A stretch of 60,442 nt of DNA, taken from Desulfatitalea alkaliphila (GTDB lineage Bacteria; Desulfobacterota; Desulfobacteria; Desulfobacterales; Desulfosarcinaceae). Each line of letters opens with the position of its first letter. Position 1 is the first letter of the stretch. The stretch covers positions 1-60,442 of the forward strand of contig NZ_JALJRB010000029.1 of NCBI RefSeq assembly GCF_022968795.1, given 5' to 3'. This document shows, one piece after another, positions 4,263-60,442 of the stretch. Under the pieces are notes generated by a model that worked only from the letters and a program-made list of their open reading frames with translations, did no database searches and was not told the origin of the DNA. A program made the translations under genes and the position numbers.

Positions 4263-7200
4263 CCACCGACACCTCCGAACGTGGCCTCGAACGGCTGATC
4301 TGCACGGCGCTCACGGGCCACCCCTGCGATCCGCCCGAAGCGTACACGGCCGGCCTGGCGCCTGCGAGCTACGGCGGCGTGGGGTGGATTTGCGGCAATT
4401 CCCATGACTACGACCGGGAATATTGCCTTGACCTGGCGCAGCTCGCCGCCTTCGTCAATGCCACCCGGCCCGGGGCGGCCGAATCCCTCTCCCTGAACGA
4501 GGATGGTCCGACGCGGCGCAAGTTTCTGGCCCGCCTGCAAGGAGAAATCACCAAGCGGGGCACCATCGAGGTGCTGCGCCACGGCATCCGTCATGGCGCC
4601 CATGACCTCGATCTCTTCCATGGCACGCCATCGCCGGGCAACGAGAAGGCCGGGGTGCGCTTTGATCTGAACCGCTTCACCGTCACCCGCCAGCTCCGAT
4701 ACAGCCGCGATGAGACCCAGCTCGCGCTGGACATGGTGCTTTTCATCAACGGCCTTCCGGTTTTCACTTTCGAACTGAAAAACAACCTCACCAAGCAGAC
4801 CGTGGCCGACGCGGTGTGGCAATACAAAAAGGACCGCAATCCCCGCGAAAAGCTCTTTGAGTTCGGCCGCTGTCTGGCGCACTTCGCCCTGGACGAAAGC
4901 GAGATCCGCTTTTGTACCCACCTCAAGGGCAAGGCTTCGTGGTTCCTGCCTTTCAACCGGGGCTGGAACGACGGCGCCGGCAATCCGCCCAATCCCCATG
5001 GCTGCAAGACCGACTATCTGTGGCGCGAGGTGCTGACCCGCGAGAGCCTGACCGACATCATCGAAAACTACGCCCAGGTGGTGGAATCCAAAGATGACCG
5101 GACGGGCAGAAAGAAACGCACCCAGATCTGGCCCCGCTACCACCAGCTCGACGTGGTCCGCAAACTTTTGGCCGACGTCGGCCGGCACGGCGCGGGCAGG
5201 CGCTACCTGATCCAGCACTCGGCGGGCAGCGGCAAGTCCAACTCCATCGCCTGGCTGGCCCACCAGTTGATCGGACGCGCAAAGGACGACGCAACCGTAT
5301 TCGACTCCATCATCGTGGTCACCGACCGCATCCTGCTCGACCGTCAGATCCGCGACACCATCAAGCAATACGCCCAGGTCGGTGCCACCGTCGGACATGC
5401 GGAGCGCTCGGGCGACCTGCGACGATTCATCGAGCAAGGCAAGAAAATCATCATATCAACGGTGCAGAAGTTCCCCTTCATTCTAAGCGAGATCGGCAGC
5501 GAGCACCGCGGGCGCACCTTCGCCATCATCATCGACGAGGCCCACTCCAGCCAGGGTGGCCGCGCCAGCGCGGCCATGGCCCAGGCCCTTTCGGAGGCGG
5601 GTGAAGTGGGTGAGGAGGAGACCTTCGAGGACCAGATCAACCGCCTGATGGAATCCCGCAAACTGCTGCCCAACGCCGGCTATTTCGCCTTCACCGCGAC
5701 ACCCAAGAACAAGACCCTGGAGATATTCGGCGCCCCCGCCCCCCGGGCCGACGGCACCGTCCAGCACCACGCCTTTCACACCTACACCATGAAGCAAGCC
5801 ATCCAGGAAGGCTTTGTTCTGGACGTGCTTGCCCACTACACCCCGGTGGCGAGCTACTACAAGCTGGCCAAGACAGTGGCGGAAGACCCTGAGTTCGACG
5901 TCAAAAAGGCCCGAAAAAAACTGCGCCGTTTTGTCGAGGGCCACGATCACGCCATCCGGCTCAAGGCCGAGATCATGGTGGATCACTTCCACGAGCAGGT
6001 GCTCGCCCAAGGGAAAATCGGCGGGCAGGCACGGGCGATGGTGGTCACCAATGGCATCGAGCGGGCCATCCAATATTACCACGCCATCGGCGACTACCTC
6101 AAAGAGCGCAAGAGCAGGATCGAAGCACTGGTCGCCTTTTCCGGCGAAAACGAGTACGGTGGGACCAAGGTCAGCGAGGCTTCGCTCAACGGATTTCCAT
6201 CCGGACAGATAGCGGCCAAATTCAAAGAAGAACCCTACCGGTTCCTGGTCTGCGCCGACAAGTTTCAGACCGGGTACGACGAGCCGCTGCTGCACACGAT
6301 GTACGTGGACAAAACGCTCTCCGGCATCAAGGCGGTGCAGACCCTCTCGCGCCTCAACCGGGCACACCCGAAAAAACATGACGTATTCGTGCTCGACTTT
6401 CTCAACGACGCAGACACCATCCGCGAAGCCTTCGCACCATTTTACAGGGCCACCATTCTGGCCGATGAGACCGACCCCAACAAGCTGCACGACCTGCAAG
6501 CCGACCTGGACGGCGCACAAATCTATTCGCCCGAACAGGTTGACGACTTTGTCCGGCTGTACCTTGGCGGGGCCGACCGCGAACGACTCGATCCGATCCT
6601 CGATGCCTGCGTGGCGGTCTATTTAAGCCAACTTGACGAGGATGGCCAGGTGGACTTCAAAGGCAAGGCCAAGGCCTTTGCGCGAACCTATGCGTTCCTT
6701 TCCTCGGTGCTGCCCTACACCAACGCCGGTTGGGAGAAACGCTCGATCTTTTTAAACTTCCTGGTTCCCAAATTGCCGGCGCCGCAGGAGGAGGATTTGT
6801 CCAAGGGCATCCTCGACGCCATCGACATGGACAGCTACCGGGTCGAAAAGCGGGCAATGCAGAAAATCATTCTGCCGGATGATGACGCCGAGATCGGGCC
6901 GGTGCCGACCGCCGGCGGTGGACGCCGCGCCGAGCCCGAACTGGACCGGCTTTCCAACATCATCAAGGTGTTCAACGAGCATTTCGGCGACATCCCTTGG
7001 CAGGATGCGGACCGGGTCCGACAACTCATCACGGAGACCATCCCCGCCCGGGTGGCGGCGGATACCGCCTACCGAAACGCGCAGCGGCATTCCGACAAAC
7101 AGAACGCCCGCATCGAACACGACAAGGCACTGTTGCGGGTGATGACGGCGGTGATGAAGGACGACACCGAACTTTTCAAACAGTTCATGGACAACGAGGG

Positions 7201-7270
7201 GTTCAAACGCTGGATGGCGGAGACGGTGTTCGGCCTGACCTACGTCGCAAGTGAGGCACAAGCACCATAA
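4259..7270 (+). CDS. hsdR: Type I restriction-modification system, endonuclease/translocase subunit HsdR
   Basis: HsdR (1003 aa) is the ATP-driven DNA translocase and nuclease that cuts unmodified DNA after the HsdMS core binds its target. The N-terminal nuclease motif is present (D158 then ELK at 172-174, in the context LFINGLPVFTFELK). The superfamily 2 motor follows, with Walker A HSAGSGKS at 320-327 and DEAH at 426-429, then QTLSRLNRAHPKK as helicase motif VI, and a C-terminal helical domain for assembly. Length is normal and no disruption is visible, so the system looks intact. It overlaps hsdS by four bases. Confidence 0.96.
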   Translation: MTTDTSERGLERLICTALTGHPCDPPEAYTAGLAPASYGGVGWICGNSHDYDREYCLDLAQLAAFVNATRPGAAESLSLNEDGPTRRKFLARLQGEITKRGTIEVLRHGIRHGAHDLDLFHGTPSPGNEKAGVRFDLNRFTVTRQLRYSRDETQLALDMVLFINGLPVFTFELKNNLTKQTVADAVWQYKKDRNPREKLFEFGRCLAHFALDESEIRFCTHLKGKASWFLPFNRGWNDGAGNPPNPHGCKTDYLWREVLTRESLTDIIENYAQVVESKDDRTGRKKRTQIWPRYHQLDVVRKLLADVGRHGAGRRYLIQHSAGSGKSNSIAWLAHQLIGRAKDDATVFDSIIVVTDRILLDRQIRDTIKQYAQVGATVGHAERSGDLRRFIEQGKKIIISTVQKFPFILSEIGSEHRGRTFAIIIDEAHSSQGGRASAAMAQALSEAGEVGEEETFEDQINRLMESRKLLPNAGYFAFTATPKNKTLEIFGAPAPRADGTVQHHAFHTYTMKQAIQEGFVLDVLAHYTPVASYYKLAKTVAEDPEFDVKKARKKLRRFVEGHDHAIRLKAEIMVDHFHEQVLAQGKIGGQARAMVVTNGIERAIQYYHAIGDYLKERKSRIEALVAFSGENEYGGTKVSEASLNGFPSGQIAAKFKEEPYRFLVCADKFQTGYDEPLLHTMYVDKTLSGIKAVQTLSRLNRAHPKKHDVFVLDFLNDADTIREAFAPFYRATILADETDPNKLHDLQADLDGAQIYSPEQVDDFVRLYLGGADRERLDPILDACVAVYLSQLDEDGQVDFKGKAKAFARTYAFLSSVLPYTNAGWEKRSIFLNFLVPKLPAPQEEDLSKGILDAIDMDSYRVEKRAMQKIILPDDDAEIGPVPTAGGGRRAEPELDRLSNIIKVFNEHFGDIPWQDADRVRQLITETIPARVAADTAYRNAQRHSDKQNARIEHDKALLRVMTAVMKDDTELFKQFMDNEGFKRWMAETVFGLTYVASEAQAP

Positions 7271-7293
7271 AAACCTCGGACCAATATTCCGGA

Positions 7294-7572
7294 TCACATC
7301 TTGATCAGCTCGGTGTGGGACTCGATACCACTTGAAATGATCGTAAATTGAGGGATGCCATCACTTATATCCCCGCCAAAAAGGTATGTTCCCGGAAGTA
7401 TTGCAAAGGTGAAGGTACTCGAAACGTTGGTTTCATCTTCGACCATGAGCGGTCGGGTCGCATCAAGAGCGATTTCTCCAAGCTTTCTTTCGTTTGCGGG
7501 GAAAAGTTGTGGTGTGGAAATTTCCACGATCCACGTAGATACCACCCTGCGATGATCATCCAAGAAAACCAT
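7294..7572 (-). CDS. Hypothetical 92-aa protein, second ORF of a small low-GC pair
   Basis: I do not recognise the family. The peptide has alternating hydrophobic strands (VSTWIVEIS; STFTFAILPGTYLF; PQFTIIS) and looks like a small beta-rich domain. It lies convergent to hsdR, 23 bases beyond its stop, and downstream of another minus-strand ORF in the same reading frame; only a TAA and four codons separate them. Base composition is lower in GC than hsdR or rsmE, suggesting a transferred cassette. The pair could be one gene split by a nonsense codon. No clear ribosome binding site precedes the ATG. Confidence 0.5.
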   Translation of the reverse strand: MVFLDDHRRVVSTWIVEISTPQLFPANERKLGEIALDATRPLMVEDETNVSSTFTFAILPGTYLFGGDISDGIPQFTIISSGIESHTELIKM

Positions 7573-7954: not shown

Positions 7955-8030
7955 TGGTGCCGAGGGACGGAATCGAACCGCCGACACGGGGATTTTCAGT
8001 CCCCTGCTCTACCGACTGAGCTACCTCGGC
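7955..8030 (-). tRNA. tRNA-Phe (anticodon GAA)
   Basis: The minus strand folds as a 76-nt tRNA with acceptor GCCGAGG/CCTCGGC, D arm with AGCTCAGTCGGTAGAGC, anticodon loop CTGAAAA (GAA, phenylalanine), T arm GGTTCGATTCC and an encoded CCA. The 3' end points toward the small low-GC ORFs and the restriction operon. tRNA 3' ends are common integration sites for islands, but no integrase and no second copy of the 3' end is visible in the window. Confidence 0.95.
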
Positions 8031-54347: not shown

Positions 54348-55028
54348 ATGGCAATGAATGTGGTGGATCGAATCGACGAGCTGGTGAAAGTGCGGCACGT
54401 CTTGATCAGCGTGTCGGACAAGACCGGACTGGAACGGCTGGTCCCCCGCCTGCGGGAGATCAACCCCGAGGTGCGGATCTTTTCCACCGGCGGCACCTTC
54501 GCTCGACTGGAACAGATCCTGGGCCCATCGGCCGAGCAGTGCCTGACCCAAGTTGCCGCCTACACGGGCCAGCCCGAAACCCAGGGGGGCTTGGTCAAGA
54601 CCCTGGATTTCAAGATCTATCTGGGGCTGTTGACCGAAACCTACAACCAAGCCCACCAGTCCGACCTGGCGCGCACCGGCGCCGTGCCCATCGACATGGT
54701 GGTGGTCAACCTCTACCCCTTTCAAGCCACCATCGCCGAATCCGGCGTCACCGTGGAACAGGCCCGGGGCAATGTTGACATCGGCGGCCCCTGCATGATC
54801 CGGGCGGCGGCCAAAAATTTCATCCGCGTGGCCGGCGTGGTGGACCCCCACGACTACGAACGCATCGTCAACGAGCTGGAGGCGCGGGACGGCTGTCTTT
54901 CCCTGGCCTTGCGCTACGAGCTGGCCTGCAAGGCCTTCGAGCATACCGCCGAGTACGACCGGACCATCGCCGACTTTCTGGCCGGCCAGTCGATCCAGGC
55001 GGTCAAAGGGTGCTACGGCGCCGGATGA
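54348..55028 (+). CDS. purH: IMP cyclohydrolase (PurH N-terminal domain as a separate gene)
   Basis: This 226-aa protein corresponds to the MGS-like N-terminal domain of bifunctional PurH, which closes FAICAR to IMP. Signatures are HVLISVSDKTGLERLVPRL, IFSTGGTFARLEQ, QGGLVKTLDFKIYLGLL, and VVNLYPFQATIAESG with NVDIGGPCMIRAAAKN. It ends 15 bases before a separate gene for the transformylase domain. GAGGTGA lies before the ATG. The split form is a real gene arrangement, not a frameshift, because the second gene has its own strong ribosome binding site. Confidence 0.93.
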   Translation: MAMNVVDRIDELVKVRHVLISVSDKTGLERLVPRLREINPEVRIFSTGGTFARLEQILGPSAEQCLTQVAAYTGQPETQGGLVKTLDFKIYLGLLTETYNQAHQSDLARTGAVPIDMVVVNLYPFQATIAESGVTVEQARGNVDIGGPCMIRAAAKNFIRVAGVVDPHDYERIVNELEARDGCLSLALRYELACKAFEHTAEYDRTIADFLAGQSIQAVKGCYGAG

Positions 55029-55043
55029 GAAAGGAGGCCGATC

Positions 55044-56294
55044 ATGGCCGATGATTTGAAAAAGATGTACCGCACCATCGTGGAGGACCACTTTCCCTCC
55101 CGGATGGAGATCAGCTTTGTCGAAGAACAATCGCGACAAACCCTCTTTTACGAAAAAGTGCGCTGGACCATCGACGGCGTCCAGAAGGGTTTGCGTTACG
55201 GTGAAAACCCCGGCCAGGAGGCCGCGCTGTACAAGCTGGTCAACGGCAACCTGGTGCTGGGCGATACCCGAACGCTGCAGCCCGGCCGTTTTCTGGTCTC
55301 GGACATCGAATTGTTGCAGTCGGGCAAGCATCCCGGCAAAACCAACCTCACCGACGCCGACAACGCCCTGAACATTTTGCGCTATTTCACCGACCGGCCC
55401 AGCGCCATCATCGTCAAGCACAACAACCCCTGCGGCGTGGCACGGGCCGACAGCCTGGTGGATGCCTATGTCAAGGCCAACCTGGCCGACCGGGTGGCCG
55501 CCTTCGGCGGTTGCATCGCCCTCAACCGGGCGGTGGACCGGGATACGGCCGAGGCCATTGCCAATCAATATGCCGAAGTGGTGGTGGCCCCCGACTTCGA
55601 GGAGGGGGCGATGGCCATCTTCCAAGCCAAACCCAACCTGCGCGTGATCCGCATCGGCAACATGGACCGCCTGCAACAGTTCGTGGGCCAACGGTGCGTG
55701 GAGTTCAAGAGCCTGATCGACGGCGGGATCATCACCCAGTGGTCCTTCGTGCCCGAAACCCGCACCCGTGATGCACTGCGCCCGGCCGAATGCGAATACA
55801 AAGGCCGCACTTACAAGGTCGATCGGGCGCCCACCGATGCCGAGTATCGCGACATGCTGTTCGGCTGGCTGGTGGAGGCCGGCGTCACCTCCAATTCGGT
55901 GCTCTATGTCAAGGACGAGGTGACCGTGGGCATCGGCACCGGCGAACAGGACCGCGTGGGCGTGGCCCAGATCGCGCGCGACAAAGCCTATCGCAAACTG
56001 GCCGACCGCTACTGTTTCGATGCTTACGGGATCCCTTACAACGACATGCAGGATGCCGAACGCATCGCGGCCATCGACGCGCGGGTGGCCGAGGAAAAAG
56101 GGGGGCTGATCGGGGCGGCCATGGTCAGCGACGCGTTCTTCCCCTTCCGCGACGGTGTGGACGTCGGTTTGCGCGAAGGGGTGCGGGCGGTGATTCAACC
56201 GGGCGGCTCCAACAACGATTACCAATCCATCGAGGCGTGCAACGAAGCGGGCGCCACCATGGTCTATACCGGCCAACGCAGCTTCAAACATTGA
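55044..56294 (+). CDS. purH: AICAR transformylase (PurH C-terminal domain as a separate gene)
   Basis: The 416-aa protein is the AICARFT part of PurH; it formylates AICAR using 10-formyl-tetrahydrofolate. It starts with a segment of about 50 residues not seen in typical PurH, then LRYGENPGQEAALY, the catalytic VKHNNPCGVA (Lys-His), DRVAAFGGCIALNRAVD, EEGAMAIFQAKPNLRVI, SNSVLYVKDEVTVGIGTGEQDRV, and RVAEEKGGLIGAAMVSDAFFPF with VIQPGGSNND. AAAGGAGG sits before the ATG. It is longer than the fused domain because of that N-terminal part. Confidence 0.93.
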   Translation: MADDLKKMYRTIVEDHFPSRMEISFVEEQSRQTLFYEKVRWTIDGVQKGLRYGENPGQEAALYKLVNGNLVLGDTRTLQPGRFLVSDIELLQSGKHPGKTNLTDADNALNILRYFTDRPSAIIVKHNNPCGVARADSLVDAYVKANLADRVAAFGGCIALNRAVDRDTAEAIANQYAEVVVAPDFEEGAMAIFQAKPNLRVIRIGNMDRLQQFVGQRCVEFKSLIDGGIITQWSFVPETRTRDALRPAECEYKGRTYKVDRAPTDAEYRDMLFGWLVEAGVTSNSVLYVKDEVTVGIGTGEQDRVGVAQIARDKAYRKLADRYCFDAYGIPYNDMQDAERIAAIDARVAEEKGGLIGAAMVSDAFFPFRDGVDVGLREGVRAVIQPGGSNNDYQSIEACNEAGATMVYTGQRSFKH

Positions 56295-56326: not shown

Positions 56327-57403
56327 ATGCCCACCACCCTCTTGCGCTTGTTCGTGGATGAAACGGCCCTGCACAACGCCCTGGTGGGACTGCCCACCTG
56401 GCTGCTGCTGCTGTTCATCGTCGTGTGCATCGCCGTTTTGTCCAAAGGCGCCGACTGGATGATCGAAGGGGTGGTTCACCTGGCCCAGCGCACCGGTCTG
56501 CCCAAAATCGTGATCGGCGCCACCATCGTATCCCTGGGCACCACCACCCCCGAAGCCGTGGTTTCGGTGATGGCGGCGGTCATGGGCAATGCCGGCCTTG
56601 CCCTGGGCAACGGGGTGGGCTCCATCATCGCCGACACCGGCCTGATCCTGGGGATCACCTGCATTTTGACCACCGTGCCCATCAACCGGTTCATCCTCAG
56701 CCGCATGGGATGGGTGCAAGTCGGGTCGGCCACACTACTGGTGGTCATCTGCGTCGGGCTGCTGTTGACCAGCGGGGAGGCCGTCCCCATGCTGCCGCGC
56801 TGGGTGGGCATCCTGTTTCTGGCGCTGTTGGTCGTCTATCTGTACGTCTCCTACCTATGGGCCCGCCAGGGCTCCACCGCCTTGCTGATGGAGGAGAAGC
56901 AAACGGCGACCGTCGCCCCGCCGGCCATTGCGCTGTGTTGGCTGATGATCGGCGGCGGTCTGCTGATGGTGCTGGCGTCGGCCCGCGTGCTGGTGCCGGC
57001 CGCCTCCGAGATGGCCTTGCGCATCGGGGTGCCGGATGATGTCATCGCCGCCACCCTGGTGGCCCTGGGCACTTCCCTGCCGGAGTTGACCACCGCCATC
57101 GCCGCCGTTCGCAAGGGGTACCCGGAAATCACCCTGGGCAACGTGATCGGCGCCGATGTGCTCAACTGCCTGTTTGTCATCGGTGCCGCGGCCACCGCCC
57201 GACCTTTGGCCATTCCGCCCAACTTTTTTTATTTCCACTTCCCGGCGATGCTGCTGATCCTCTACTCCCTGCGGCTGTTCATCGCCGTCAACCGCGGCAC
57301 GCACTTCCATCGCTGGCAAGGGGCGTGGCTGCTGGCCGTCTATCTGGTATATGTGGCCCTGCAGTTCACCCTCGGAGGGTCGACGCCAACCATGGGAGTG
57401 TAA
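56327..57403 (+). CDS. CaCA-family sodium/calcium-type antiporter (YrbG-like)
   Basis: The 358-aa membrane protein has about ten helices and both alpha-repeat motifs of the cation/Ca2+ exchanger superfamily: VIGATIVSLGTTTPEAVVSV and AATLVALGTSLPELTTAIAA, plus GNVIGADVLNCLFVIG in the second repeat. It would exchange Ca2+ (or another divalent or K+) for Na+ or H+ across the inner membrane; specificity is not deducible. It is complete and on the same strand as purH and the metalloprotease, with a 65-base gap before the latter. Confidence 0.92.
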   Translation: MPTTLLRLFVDETALHNALVGLPTWLLLLFIVVCIAVLSKGADWMIEGVVHLAQRTGLPKIVIGATIVSLGTTTPEAVVSVMAAVMGNAGLALGNGVGSIIADTGLILGITCILTTVPINRFILSRMGWVQVGSATLLVVICVGLLLTSGEAVPMLPRWVGILFLALLVVYLYVSYLWARQGSTALLMEEKQTATVAPPAIALCWLMIGGGLLMVLASARVLVPAASEMALRIGVPDDVIAATLVALGTSLPELTTAIAAVRKGYPEITLGNVIGADVLNCLFVIGAAATARPLAIPPNFFYFHFPAMLLILYSLRLFIAVNRGTHFHRWQGAWLLAVYLVYVALQFTLGGSTPTMGV

Positions 57404-57468
57404 CCAAGACGCCGTTGCCGCTTGGCTTTTTTTCGAAAATGGTTAACTTGCCCGCAAAGGAGGCGCCG

Positions 57469-58305
57469 ATGCAACCCGTCCGCCGTCAGAACCGCTTCAA
57501 TCGCACCCGATTGGTCATTATCGCCGTCGCCCTTGCGTTGACGGCCTGGGCTTGTGCCCAGGTGCCCGTCACCGGGCGCAGCAGCCTGCAACTGGTTTCC
57601 AACAACCAACTGGCCGGCATGGCCGTACAGCAATACAACGACACCCTGGAAAAGAGTACCCTTTCCAAAGATGCGGCCCAAACCGCCATGGTCCGGCGGG
57701 TGGGCACGCGCATCGCCGACGCCGCCGAACAGTTTCTGCGGGAAACGGGACGGGACGATCTGGCCGGATCCTTTCAGTGGGAATTCAATCTCATCGAAGA
57801 TGACGAAACCGTCAACGCCTGGGTGCTGCCCGGGGGCAAGACGGTGGTGTACACCGGCATTCTGAAACACACCCAAAACGAAACCGGCCTGGCGGTGGTG
57901 CTGGGGCACGAAGTGGCCCATGCCCTCGCGGGCCACGGCAACGAGCGGGTCAGCCAGGGACTGCTCACCCAATTGGGCGGCGTGGCCCTCGCCGTGGCCC
58001 TCGCCCAGAAGCCCGCCGAAACCCAACAGCTCTTCATGGCGGCTTACGGCCTGGGGGCCAACGTGGGGGTGTTGCTGCCCTACAGTCGGCTCCACGAGCG
58101 GGAGGCCGACCGCATCGGCCTGGTATTGATGGCCATGGCCGGCTACGATCCGCGGGAATCCGTCCCCTTCTGGCAGCGCATGAACAGTGAGGGCGGCGCC
58201 CGTCCGCCGGAATTTCTGTCCACCCACCCGGCGCCGGACACCCGCATCGCCGAGATCGAACGCTATCTGCCGGAGGCCCTGTCCTACTACAAGCCGACCC
58301 GCTGA
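57469..58305 (+). CDS. M48-family metalloprotease lipoprotein (LoiP/BepA-like)
   Basis: The protein (278 aa) has a short basic N terminus, a hydrophobic segment and a lipobox (LTAWAC), so it is probably anchored to the outer membrane facing the periplasm. The zinc site HEVAH is in VVLGHEVAHALAGHGNERVSQ, with the third ligand in LHEREADRIGLVLMAMAGYDP; the C-terminal STHPAPDTRIAEI is the family pattern. It would degrade misfolded outer-membrane proteins. AAAGGAGG lies 5 nt before the ATG at 57469. It is followed, in the same frame, by the selenoprotein gene. Confidence 0.94.
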   Translation: MQPVRRQNRFNRTRLVIIAVALALTAWACAQVPVTGRSSLQLVSNNQLAGMAVQQYNDTLEKSTLSKDAAQTAMVRRVGTRIADAAEQFLRETGRDDLAGSFQWEFNLIEDDETVNAWVLPGGKTVVYTGILKHTQNETGLAVVLGHEVAHALAGHGNERVSQGLLTQLGGVALAVALAQKPAETQQLFMAAYGLGANVGVLLPYSRLHEREADRIGLVLMAMAGYDPRESVPFWQRMNSEGGARPPEFLSTHPAPDTRIAEIERYLPEALSYYKPTR

Positions 58306-58323: not shown

Positions 58324-59181
58324 TTGGAGGAACCCATCGCACCCCGGACATTCATCAACCAATCCATCGCCAAACTGCTCACCCGGTTTCCCGCTCTGTT
58401 CCGCCGCTGGGTACGGCACCACTCCTTCGTTACCTTCGATGACAGCCCCTGGACGCCTTTTAAAGGCGATCCGGCGCAGAGCCGGGTGGCATTGGTGACC
58501 ACGGCCGGCGTGCACCTGCGGCACGATCCCCCTTTCAACATGCGCGATCCGGCCGGGGATGCAACCTTCCGTGAAATCCCGGCGCAGAGCACCCCGACGG
58601 ATCTGACCATCACCCACGACTATTACGATCACCGCGACGCCGACCGGGACATCAGCGTGGTGCTGCCCCTTGAACCGCTCAACGCACTGGCCGCCGCCGG
58701 CGACATCGGTGCCGTCAACCGGCGCCACTTCTCCTTCATGGGCCACATTCTGCCGCCCCACCGCCGCACCCTGGTCGATGATACCGCACCACGGGTGGCG
58801 GAACTGCTCAAGGCCGACGAGGTGGACATCGCCATCCTCACCCCGGCCTGAGGGCTGTGCAATCAGTCCGTGGGACTGATCCAGCGCATCATTGAAGCAG
58901 CGGGCATCGCCACCATCTCCGTCACCCTTTCCCGCGGCATCAGCAAACAGGTAAAACCACCCCGCGCGGTCTACACCGGCTTTCCCCTGGGCCACCCTTT
59001 CGGCTTTCCCCACCAAAACTTTCGCCAGCAACAACTGCTGCGACTGCTGCTGCACTATTTAGCGGTTCTGGAAACGCCGGGAGAAATCGTGGTGCACAAG
59101 CTCACGCAAGACGGCGACCCGGACAAGGCGTGCGCGCTGTGTACACCGTCGGGGCCGCCCCCGGCCGACAGGCGGATTTGA
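58324..59181 (+). CDS. GrdB/PrdB-family selenoprotein with an in-frame UGA (Sec) codon
   Basis: The frame runs 285 codons with an in-frame TGA at 58849-58851 read as selenocysteine at residue 176. Around it the sequence is AILTPA-U-GLCNQSVGLIQR, matching the glycine/betaine/D-proline reductase selenoprotein B family (UxxC). The two halves by themselves would be broken. Conserved N-terminal RVALVTTAGVHLRHDPPF and ISVVLPLEPLNALAAAGDIG blocks are seen. A SECIS-like hairpin starts right after the TGA. Substrate is unknown; no grd/prd partner is nearby. The start is uncertain: TTG 58324 has no upstream Shine-Dalgarno; an ideal GGAGGA instead lies just before an in-frame ATC. Confidence 0.88.
58849..58885 (+). 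promoter_or_regulatory. Bacterial SECIS element for selenocysteine insertion
   Basis: Immediately after the UGA, ATCAGTCC (58862-58869) pairs perfectly with GGACTGAT (58873-58880) around a GTG loop whose first base is G and which lies 19 nt beyond the UGA. A lower stem, GCTG (58854-58857) with CAGC (58882-58885), extends it across a small bulge. Position, stem and loop match the bacterial SECIS that recruits SelB. Confidence 0.85.
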
Positions 59182-59316
59182 CAGCGCCGCAGAATCTCCT
59201 CAACCCCTAACCGCATCATCGGTCGCCCCTCCAGGTCCCCCATGACAAGGCCGCCGGCAAACCTTATGTTGGCACACGACGAAGACCATTGCCTTGGGAA
59301 TATGGGGAACAGCCTT

Positions 59317-60442
59317 ATGGAAAAGCAAAAGACGCTCCGGATGCGCTGGCACCAGCGCCTGGCCGAGGTGGACCGCGACGCCTGGGACCGCCTGGCGCAG
59401 CCACTGGCCACGCCCTTGCTGGAGTGGCGCTGGCTGCACGCTCTGGAGACCTCGGGCAGCATTGCGCCTGGTGCCGGCTGGCACCCCCACCATTTGACGG
59501 TCTGGCGCAAGAACCGACTGGTGGGCGCCGCGCCGTTCTACATCAAGACCCACAGTGACGGCGAATTCGTCTTCGACCAGTGGTGGGCCCAATTGGCGCG
59601 CGAAGCAGGCATCCCCTATTATCCCAAGATGGTGGGCATGAGCCCGGTGACGCCGGCGGTGGGCTACCGTTTTCTCATCGACCCGTCGGATCCCGATCCA
59701 ACCGCCATACAGGCCGCAATGCTCGACGCCGTCGACGCCCTTTGCCTGCAAAAGGGGCTGGCCGGCTGCCACCTGCTGTTCCTGGATCCCGCCTGGCGGA
59801 GATCACTGCCGGCGGGCCTTTTCGCGCCCTGGCAGCATCAGAGCTTTGTGTGGCACAATGAGGGCTTTCGCCATTTCGAGGATTATCTGGCGCGGTTTAA
59901 AGCCTCCCAACGGCGCAACATTCGTCGGGAACGGCAGCGGATGGTGGATGCCGGCATCGATTTTCGCCCTCTCAGCGGCGATCAGCTCAACGGTGATTGG
60001 GCCCAACGCATGTATCGGTGCTATGCCGACACCAACCGGCGTTACGGGCCGTGGGGGTGTCACTATCTCAACGCCGACTTCTTCGAAATGGCCTTCACCC
60101 ATTACCGCCACCGGCTGCTGCTGATCAACGCCGAACAGCAGGGACACACCCTCGCCCTGGCCATGCTGTTGCACAAGGGGGACCACCTCCTGGGCCGTTA
60201 TTGGGGCGCCGAACGCACCATCAAAGACCTGCACTTCAACATGTGCTTCTACGAGCCGATCCAGTGGGCCATCGACCACCAGATCCGGTCCTTCGACCCG
60301 GGTGCGGGATCGCCCCACAAAATCCAGCGCGGTTTTCAGGCGGTCACCAACACCAGCCTTCACCGTTTCTACGAACCGCGCCTGCAGCTCGTTTTCAATC
60401 ACTTGATCCAACGGGTCAACCGGATGGAACAGGCCAACATCT
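59317..60442 (+). CDS. Clipped COG3146 (DUF482)-like N-acyltransferase, GNAT superfamily
   Basis: The frame stays open to the window end (375 codons seen). It starts MEKQKTLRMRWHQRLAEVDR, with PLLEWRWLHALETSGSI and HPHHLTVWRKNRLVGAAPFY, and later FKASQRRNIRRERQRM, CYADTNRRYGPWG, and FNMCFYEPIQWAIDHQIRSF with PGAGSPHKIQRGF. This is the pattern of the COG3146/DUF482 family, related to FemAB-like transferases and of uncertain function. GGGGA precedes the ATG; an in-frame ATG 15 bases upstream (59302) is also possible. It may belong with the selenoprotein gene, 135 bases upstream. Confidence 0.85.
   Translation, partial: MEKQKTLRMRWHQRLAEVDRDAWDRLAQPLATPLLEWRWLHALETSGSIAPGAGWHPHHLTVWRKNRLVGAAPFYIKTHSDGEFVFDQWWAQLAREAGIPYYPKMVGMSPVTPAVGYRFLIDPSDPDPTAIQAAMLDAVDALCLQKGLAGCHLLFLDPAWRRSLPAGLFAPWQHQSFVWHNEGFRHFEDYLARFKASQRRNIRRERQRMVDAGIDFRPLSGDQLNGDWAQRMYRCYADTNRRYGPWGCHYLNADFFEMAFTHYRHRLLLINAEQQGHTLALAMLLHKGDHLLGRYWGAERTIKDLHFNMCFYEPIQWAIDHQIRSFDPGAGSPHKIQRGFQAVTNTSLHRFYEPRLQLVFNHLIQRVNRMEQANI

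Follow-up and report, generated by a model that had tools for sequence, protein, structure and literature searches.

Contig NZ_JALJRB010000029.1 of Desulfatitalea alkaliphila, which was analyzed over its whole length of 60,442 nt up to the contig end at 60442 and is referred to here as the window, contains close to this end a reading frame (58324-59181) whose sole internal stop is the TGA at 58849-58851 and which is closed by the TGA at 59179-59181. The frame appears to encode a selenoprotein related to PrdB, for which the internal UGA would be decoded as selenocysteine (Sec) with the aid of a hairpin resembling the bacterial selenocysteine insertion sequence (SECIS). The features concerned, with coordinates in the window, are the following.

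58336..59181, plus strand: putative gene for a PrdB-like selenoprotein of 281 residues if read from ATC (285 from TTG 58324), stop codon included in the coordinates
58326..58330, plus strand: Shine-Dalgarno-like GGAGG, read from the sequence, 5 nt before ATC 58336
58336..58338, plus strand: proposed start codon ATC (AUC), ATC being present in five of the eight genus orthologues
58849..58851, plus strand: in-frame TGA predicted to be read as Sec (U176 counted from TTG 58324, U172 from ATC)
58858..58860, plus strand: TGC, the codon of the partner Cys in the UxxC motif (UGLC), invariant in the 57-row alignment A1
58862..58880, plus strand: bacterial SECIS-like hairpin with an 8-pair stem and a 3-nt loop GUG, from folding and covariation
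59131..59142, plus strand: CALC (CxxC) in the C-terminal tail, found in this genus only

The in-frame TGA and the downstream hairpin

A preliminary description of this DNA had proposed that the frame stays open past the TGA to 59181 and that ordinary gene calling would split it in two. Both the frame itself and homology on either side of the TGA bear this out, and the residues at the junction, AILTPA-U-GLCNQSVGLIQR, contain the UxxC Sec site as it had been described. Relatives were collected by scanning a one-genome-per-species collection with six peptide patterns that all lie outside the TGA, and the best 80 of 171 were kept. The aligned codon is TGA in 79 of these best 80 relatives and GGA in one (L040). 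When further relatives are included, the 109 distinct loci (L098, which duplicates the window locus, being excluded) have TGA in 106 cases, GGA in L040 and TGC in the distant relative L114, while L124 is a remnant without the site. Among 60 genomes of the own and related groups, 38 of the 40 matches at E 1e-5 contain an in-frame TGA. In a sample of the phylum, 51 of 247 genomes have a match at E 1e-40, and all 61 matches contain at least one in-frame TGA, counted here irrespective of its position and with a profile built from TGA rows; four of them have an additional TAA or TAG and two have two TGA codons. Cys forms look rare in the branch of the window protein.

Three side observations concern these relatives. 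The genome of L040 has SelB over the cut-off, and its GGA is either a real change or a sequencing error. L042 contains two TGA-containing PrdB-like genes (4314-5060 and 6840-7421) within about 3 kb. Several related genomes have two to three matches each.

The hairpin begins 13 nt past the U of the UGA and has the sequence AUCAGUCC-GUG-GGACUGAU. It had been called strong in the preliminary description; the hairpin exists and covaries, whereas its folding strength by itself does not stand out. Several points limit what the frame and the hairpin say on their own. In the G+C-rich window, a frame open for at least 60 codons both before and after a TGA occurs 120 times, and TGA 58849 is joint fifth among these sites by the folding energy after the TGA. 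Compared with shuffled sequences, the window hairpin has a z of -1.9, with 8 of 200 shuffles equally good. The frame and the hairpin alone are therefore weak evidence, so the hairpin was dropped as a proof in its own right and homology and covariation were relied on instead. Covariation has weak points of its own, as the stem was first defined on the window sequence, a choice that favours the count of paired cells, and related sequences can beat shuffles without any structure.

Across the 106 TGA loci, the stem has all eight pairs in 75 loci, seven in 26, six in three and five in two. With synonymous recoding as the null, the native folding energy is lower in 99 of the 106 loci (mean z -1.96), and 60 reach the 5% level or better; within the genus this level is reached by the window, L104, L105 and L107 and missed by L101, L102, L103 and L106. 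Covariation was scored on an alignment of 102 distinct sequences (A2), i.e. 816 cells for the eight pairs. Here, 95.3% of the cells are paired, changes on both sides occur at six of the eight pairs, and 63 cells are changed on both sides versus 12.3 in shuffles. The covariation score is 0.342 versus 0.156 for shuffled alignments, none of 500 shuffles being as high. When the stem partners are slid against each other, the score falls sharply, leaving a clear peak at the true pairing. Because these slid controls score lower, an explanation of the covariation by kinship alone is disfavoured. In distant rows the peptide differs (e.g. H-V-S-V-G-H-V in L120 versus N-Q-S-V-G-L-I), yet the stem pairs. 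Judging from the homology on both sides of the TGA, the TGA shared by all but one of the best 80 relatives and the stem covariation, the site is more than a product of chance, and UGA 58849 is almost certainly read as Sec. Actual Sec insertion is what we infer from these comparisons.

The preliminary description had assumed that the Sec machinery is encoded elsewhere and had regarded its absence from the genome as an argument against the selenoprotein. In the 5.07 Mb genome of D. alkaliphila (99.68% complete according to the tool's figure), SelB (379.6 bits), SelA (605.2), SelD (367.2) and tRNA-Sec (73.5 bits) are all found over their cut-offs, and ARAGORN gives the tRNA-Sec anticodon as tca. 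The SelD match (L131, G000:C16:32576-33502) itself holds one in-frame TGA, and the SelD of this genome is probably a selenoprotein as well. SelB was found over the cut-off in 38 of 50 carrier genomes (50 of the 80 loci), including Chloroflexus islandicus and both Herpetosiphon loci. It was not found over the cut-off in the other 12, namely ten metagenome-assembled genomes or bins, Kouleothrix aurantiaca COM-B and Oscillochloris ZM17-4.

The stop codon inside the frame would also be accounted for if the gene were a recent pseudogene or its product a short protein ending at the UGA, and ATC for ATG could then mean a lost start. Furthermore, in the congener G010 (95% complete, 8% contamination) the gene is down to a remnant of 63 codons (L124, about 1507-1695, just before a FemAB-like gene), which adds to the points against a functional selenoprotein. 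The preliminary description had looked to close relatives lacking the region after the UGA as evidence against its proposal, and G010, one of ten congeners, does lack this region. However, the N-terminal part of the gene is missing too, so the remnant looks like a decayed gene and makes no case for a short functional form; the gene can apparently be lost within the genus. Of the 11 genomes of the genus, the own genome included, 8 have a match that spans the TGA with E 1e-20 or better, among them all six whose completeness is at least 90% and whose contamination is at most 5%. No match at E 1e-20 was found in G007 and G008, which are 73% and 64% complete. These orthologues across the TGA, substitutions that are concentrated in third codon positions and a TGA that is conserved together with its covarying stem in different phyla leave the pseudogene or short protein barely credible.

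Start codon and C-terminal tail

The preliminary description had placed the start at TTG 58324, giving 285 codons. Instead, translation probably starts at ATC 58336, a codon rarely accepted as a start by gene finders, giving 281 residues, since GGAGG with its spacer of five bases fits better there. For the comparison with the genus, codons are numbered from TTG 58324, and ATC 58336 is the fifth codon of the frame counted from this TTG. At the corresponding position ATC is present in the window, L101, L103, L104 and L105 and ATG in L102 and L107, while L106 has an ATG one codon upstream of the shared start position. Purine-rich stretches (GGAGGTG, GGGGG, AAGGAG, GAGGTG) precede the start in L101 to L105 and are weaker in L106 and L107. 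Pairwise differences at codon positions 1, 2 and 3 are 0.72, 0.73 and 0.76 for codons -10 to -1 and 0.71, 0.69 and 0.54 for codons 0-4, and then 0.28, 0.26 and 0.61 for codons 6-13, 0.29, 0.16 and 0.47 for codons 14-21 and 0.12, 0.19 and 0.45 for codons 22-29. As the differences drop from codon 6, constraint at the protein level begins directly after the ATC or ATG.

A canonical start, with ATC merely the fifth codon of a selenoprotein frame that begins at TTG 58324 in the window, has some points in its favour, as this TTG is in frame and usable as a bacterial start and L103 and L104 have an in-frame GTG, TTG or ATG further upstream. However, TTG 58324 overlaps the GGAGG, codons 0-4 show little of the coding pattern seen in codons 6-13, and ATG stands at the very position of the ATC in L102 and L107. 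Moreover, two orthologues offer no ATG, GTG or TTG from the upstream stop over a long distance, i.e. to codon 41 in L101, which has TGA at codon 3 and ATC at codons 4 and 5, and to codon 30 in L105. In-frame CTG codons occur further on in these two (codon 15 in L101, codon 7 in L105), but starts at these codons are less likely because they are not shared. We thus regard a canonical start as rather unlikely, and the comparison within the genus makes translation from AUC 58336 a likely, though not a safe, assignment.

A lenient test asked for any ATG, GTG or TTG in the open frame ahead of codon 18. Of the 92 loci with a match extending to this codon, 89 have one. The loci without such a codon are L101, L105 and L096, the frame of L096 being closed by a stop there, probably owing to a frameshift. 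The ATC start therefore looks like a feature of this genus. In the protein tree, species with ATC and species with ATG are intermingled with modest support, so the change between the two codons may have gone in either direction.

Like the ATC start, the CxxC of the C-terminal tail had been overlooked in the preliminary description. The motif D-P-x-x-x-C-x-L-C lies 3 to 22 residues before the end in all seven genus orthologues whose 3' end is complete; L104 is cut by the end of its contig and is thus outside this count. In the 98 other TGA rows no CxxC was found at the C-terminal position. The structure model of the protein is confident (predicted local distance difference test, pLDDT, 91.9), with low confidence for the tail, and places Sec in the UGLC motif just before a helix. 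That the CxxC tail acts as an internal reductant is a guess.

Family assignment and genomic surroundings

The best family match of the window protein is the NCBIfam model of PrdB, TIGR04483 (146.7 bits, E 7e-43), and all 57 rows of alignment A1 match this model as well. The score is about half of the curated cut-off of 300. NCBIfam TIGR01918 (various_sel_PB) gives 43.8 bits, below its cut-off of 65.45, and covers positions 222-410 of 431, whereas the Pfam family GRDB (PF07355) is passed narrowly with 23.8 bits versus a gathering cut-off of 22. Thus, the assignment to GrdB/PrdB made in the preliminary description holds for these profiles at the level of the superfamily only, not at that of the NCBIfam families. 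Like PrdB, the window protein is a short single-domain protein with Sec in a UxxC motif, matching positions 18-228 of the 238 of the model. It differs in its first 40 residues, which lie outside the match, in its score, in the CxxC tail of the genus and in that no PrdA was found. With GrdB, GrdF and GrdH (PF07355, TIGR01918) it shares homology to their C-terminal half but lacks the N-terminal half (the full length being about 430 positions), stays under 65.45 bits, and no GrdE-type partner was found in its genome.

In D-proline reductase and in the glycine, sarcosine and betaine reductases, the partner of the Sec subunit is a proprotein from which a pyruvoyl group is generated. The preliminary description had noted no such partner nearby, and this can be extended to the whole genome of D. 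alkaliphila, in which PF09338, the family of the GrdE/PrdA-type pyruvoyl subunit, has no match. We take PF09338 to cover PrdA. Among the 60 genomes mentioned above, of which 29 contain a relative of the window protein (E 1e-5), 59 have no match to PF09338, G059 being the one that does. In 50 other carrier genomes, PF09338 was not found in 45 and matched in five. Two of these five were inspected, and in both the match is a GrdG-like protein adjoining its own long GrdF-like gene. The model of PrdA, TIGR04480, has no match in the 60 genomes but none in the controls either, so that this search has no positive control; the two GrdG-like proteins match it weakly, which fits PF09338 covering PrdA.

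As no pyruvoyl subunit of the PrdA/GrdE type was found in the genome, the window protein is unlikely to be a subunit of a D-proline, glycine, sarcosine or betaine reductase. It probably works without a pyruvoyl subunit and, as far as the profiles tell, is likely not an amino-acid reductase of a known type. The opposite assignment, to PrdB as a subunit of a genuine D-proline reductase, follows the name that selenoproteome surveys give to the family and is favoured by TIGR04483 being the best match; the Global Ocean Sampling (GOS) survey counted 235 Sec-containing 'PrdB' sequences and, with a wider net, 110 Cys homologues beside them (PMC2398784). Given the low TIGR04483 score, the missing TIGR04480 and PF09338 matches and the context of the two inspected PF09338 proteins, we consider this assignment highly improbable.

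Two genes flank the locus.

57325..58305, plus strand: M48 metallopeptidase, upstream neighbour (PF01435, E 3e-35; start provisional)
59242..60442, plus strand: FemAB-like protein, downstream neighbour, cut by the contig end (PF04339, E 1.2e-120)

The cluster of the M48 neighbour is also found upstream in L101, L102, L104 and L105, and the FemAB-like cluster adjoins the gene or its remnant in the four congeners L101, L102, L105 and L124. When the neighbours within 5 kb of 110 loci with a match were clustered (the window locus being counted twice), no cluster was present in more than 15 loci. Members of a cluster around heavy-metal P-type ATPases occur in 15 loci (e.g. L048:3120-5951 and L035:2990-5272), and in 14 of these the member lies upstream in the same orientation. 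Three of the members are short, with 79, 81 and 142 residues, and two of these belong to the 14 upstream ones. Two representatives were annotated, and one of them has YHS and HMA domains. A link to metals is possible, but this neighbourhood was set aside as a basis for a function, since the carriers may not be independent lineages. Class I methyltransferase-like proteins occur in nine loci with varying placement.

Elsewhere in the window, 54348-55028 and 55044-56294 are consecutive open reading frames in the same frame, separated by a TGA and a strong ribosome binding site. They look like two separate genes and resemble the two parts of PurH. A tRNA gene at 7958-8030 on the minus strand is the sole Rfam match in the window at the gathering threshold.

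Proposed role of the protein and significance

Overall, we consider it probable that the locus encodes one single-domain PrdB-like selenoprotein that stands alone rather than serving as a subunit of an amino-acid reductase. Translation would begin at AUC 58336, preceded by a good Shine-Dalgarno sequence, and the ribosome would decode UGA 58849 as Sec, aided by the hairpin at 58862-58880 and by SelA, SelB, SelC and SelD encoded elsewhere. The selenolate in UGLC could then attack a substrate or a disulfide, and the Cys three residues on could resolve Sec as a selenenylsulfide, which might be reduced by thioredoxin or, within this genus, by the CxxC in the C-terminal tail of the protein itself. 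A stand-alone selenol oxidoreductase is in our view a better guess than a reductase subunit; the thiol chemistry, the AUC initiation and the role of the tail are all steps that we infer.

The kind of protein is already known, as PrdB-family selenoproteins have been catalogued since 2005. The 'proline reductase PrdB' proteins of the Sargasso Sea, GOS, Anaeromyxobacter and Geobacter surveys contain UxxC and, in the GOS survey, also pfam07355 (PMC1088965, PMC2398784, PMC1794560). Likened by these descriptions rather than by their sequences, they probably belong to the same broad family as the window protein. In the passages of these surveys covered here there is no discussion of an absent PrdA, of an ATC start or of a CxxC tail. 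A 2026 review gives PrdB as a subunit of D-proline reductase, likewise leaving a missing partner unmentioned in the passages covered (PMC13188914). As for the start codon, a natural ATC start is known from Listeria rnhC, where it is fixed in a conserved gene and the initiation site was confirmed experimentally (PMC13068326). In contrast to this different gene from a different phylum, the genus of the window gene alternates between ATC and ATG, and the gene in addition needs UGA recoding. No report of a PrdB-like protein that lacks PrdA or is translated from AUC was found in the titles, the beginnings of abstracts and the passages covered, most subscription journals and bioRxiv lying outside this coverage. 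New to us are the ATC start, the CxxC tail and the argument for an orphan branch distinct from proline reductase.

With slightly more doubt than confidence, we suggest a wider interpretation. The widespread and mostly Sec-containing 'proline reductase PrdB' family might be a separate one-component selenol oxidoreductase without a pyruvoyl subunit. One genus would have added its own dithiol to recycle the selenenylsulfide, together with an AUC start, so that its message would need both a near-cognate start and UGA recoding, keeping synthesis low or dependent on conditions. A gene of this type could escape ordinary calling at both its start and its middle. The alternation of ATC and ATG within one genus provides a natural series for the effect of a near-cognate start on a costly selenoprotein. 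If many PrdB-like proteins work without a pyruvoyl subunit, as the 45 of 50 carrier genomes suggest, the function now assigned to a common selenoprotein family would have to be revised.
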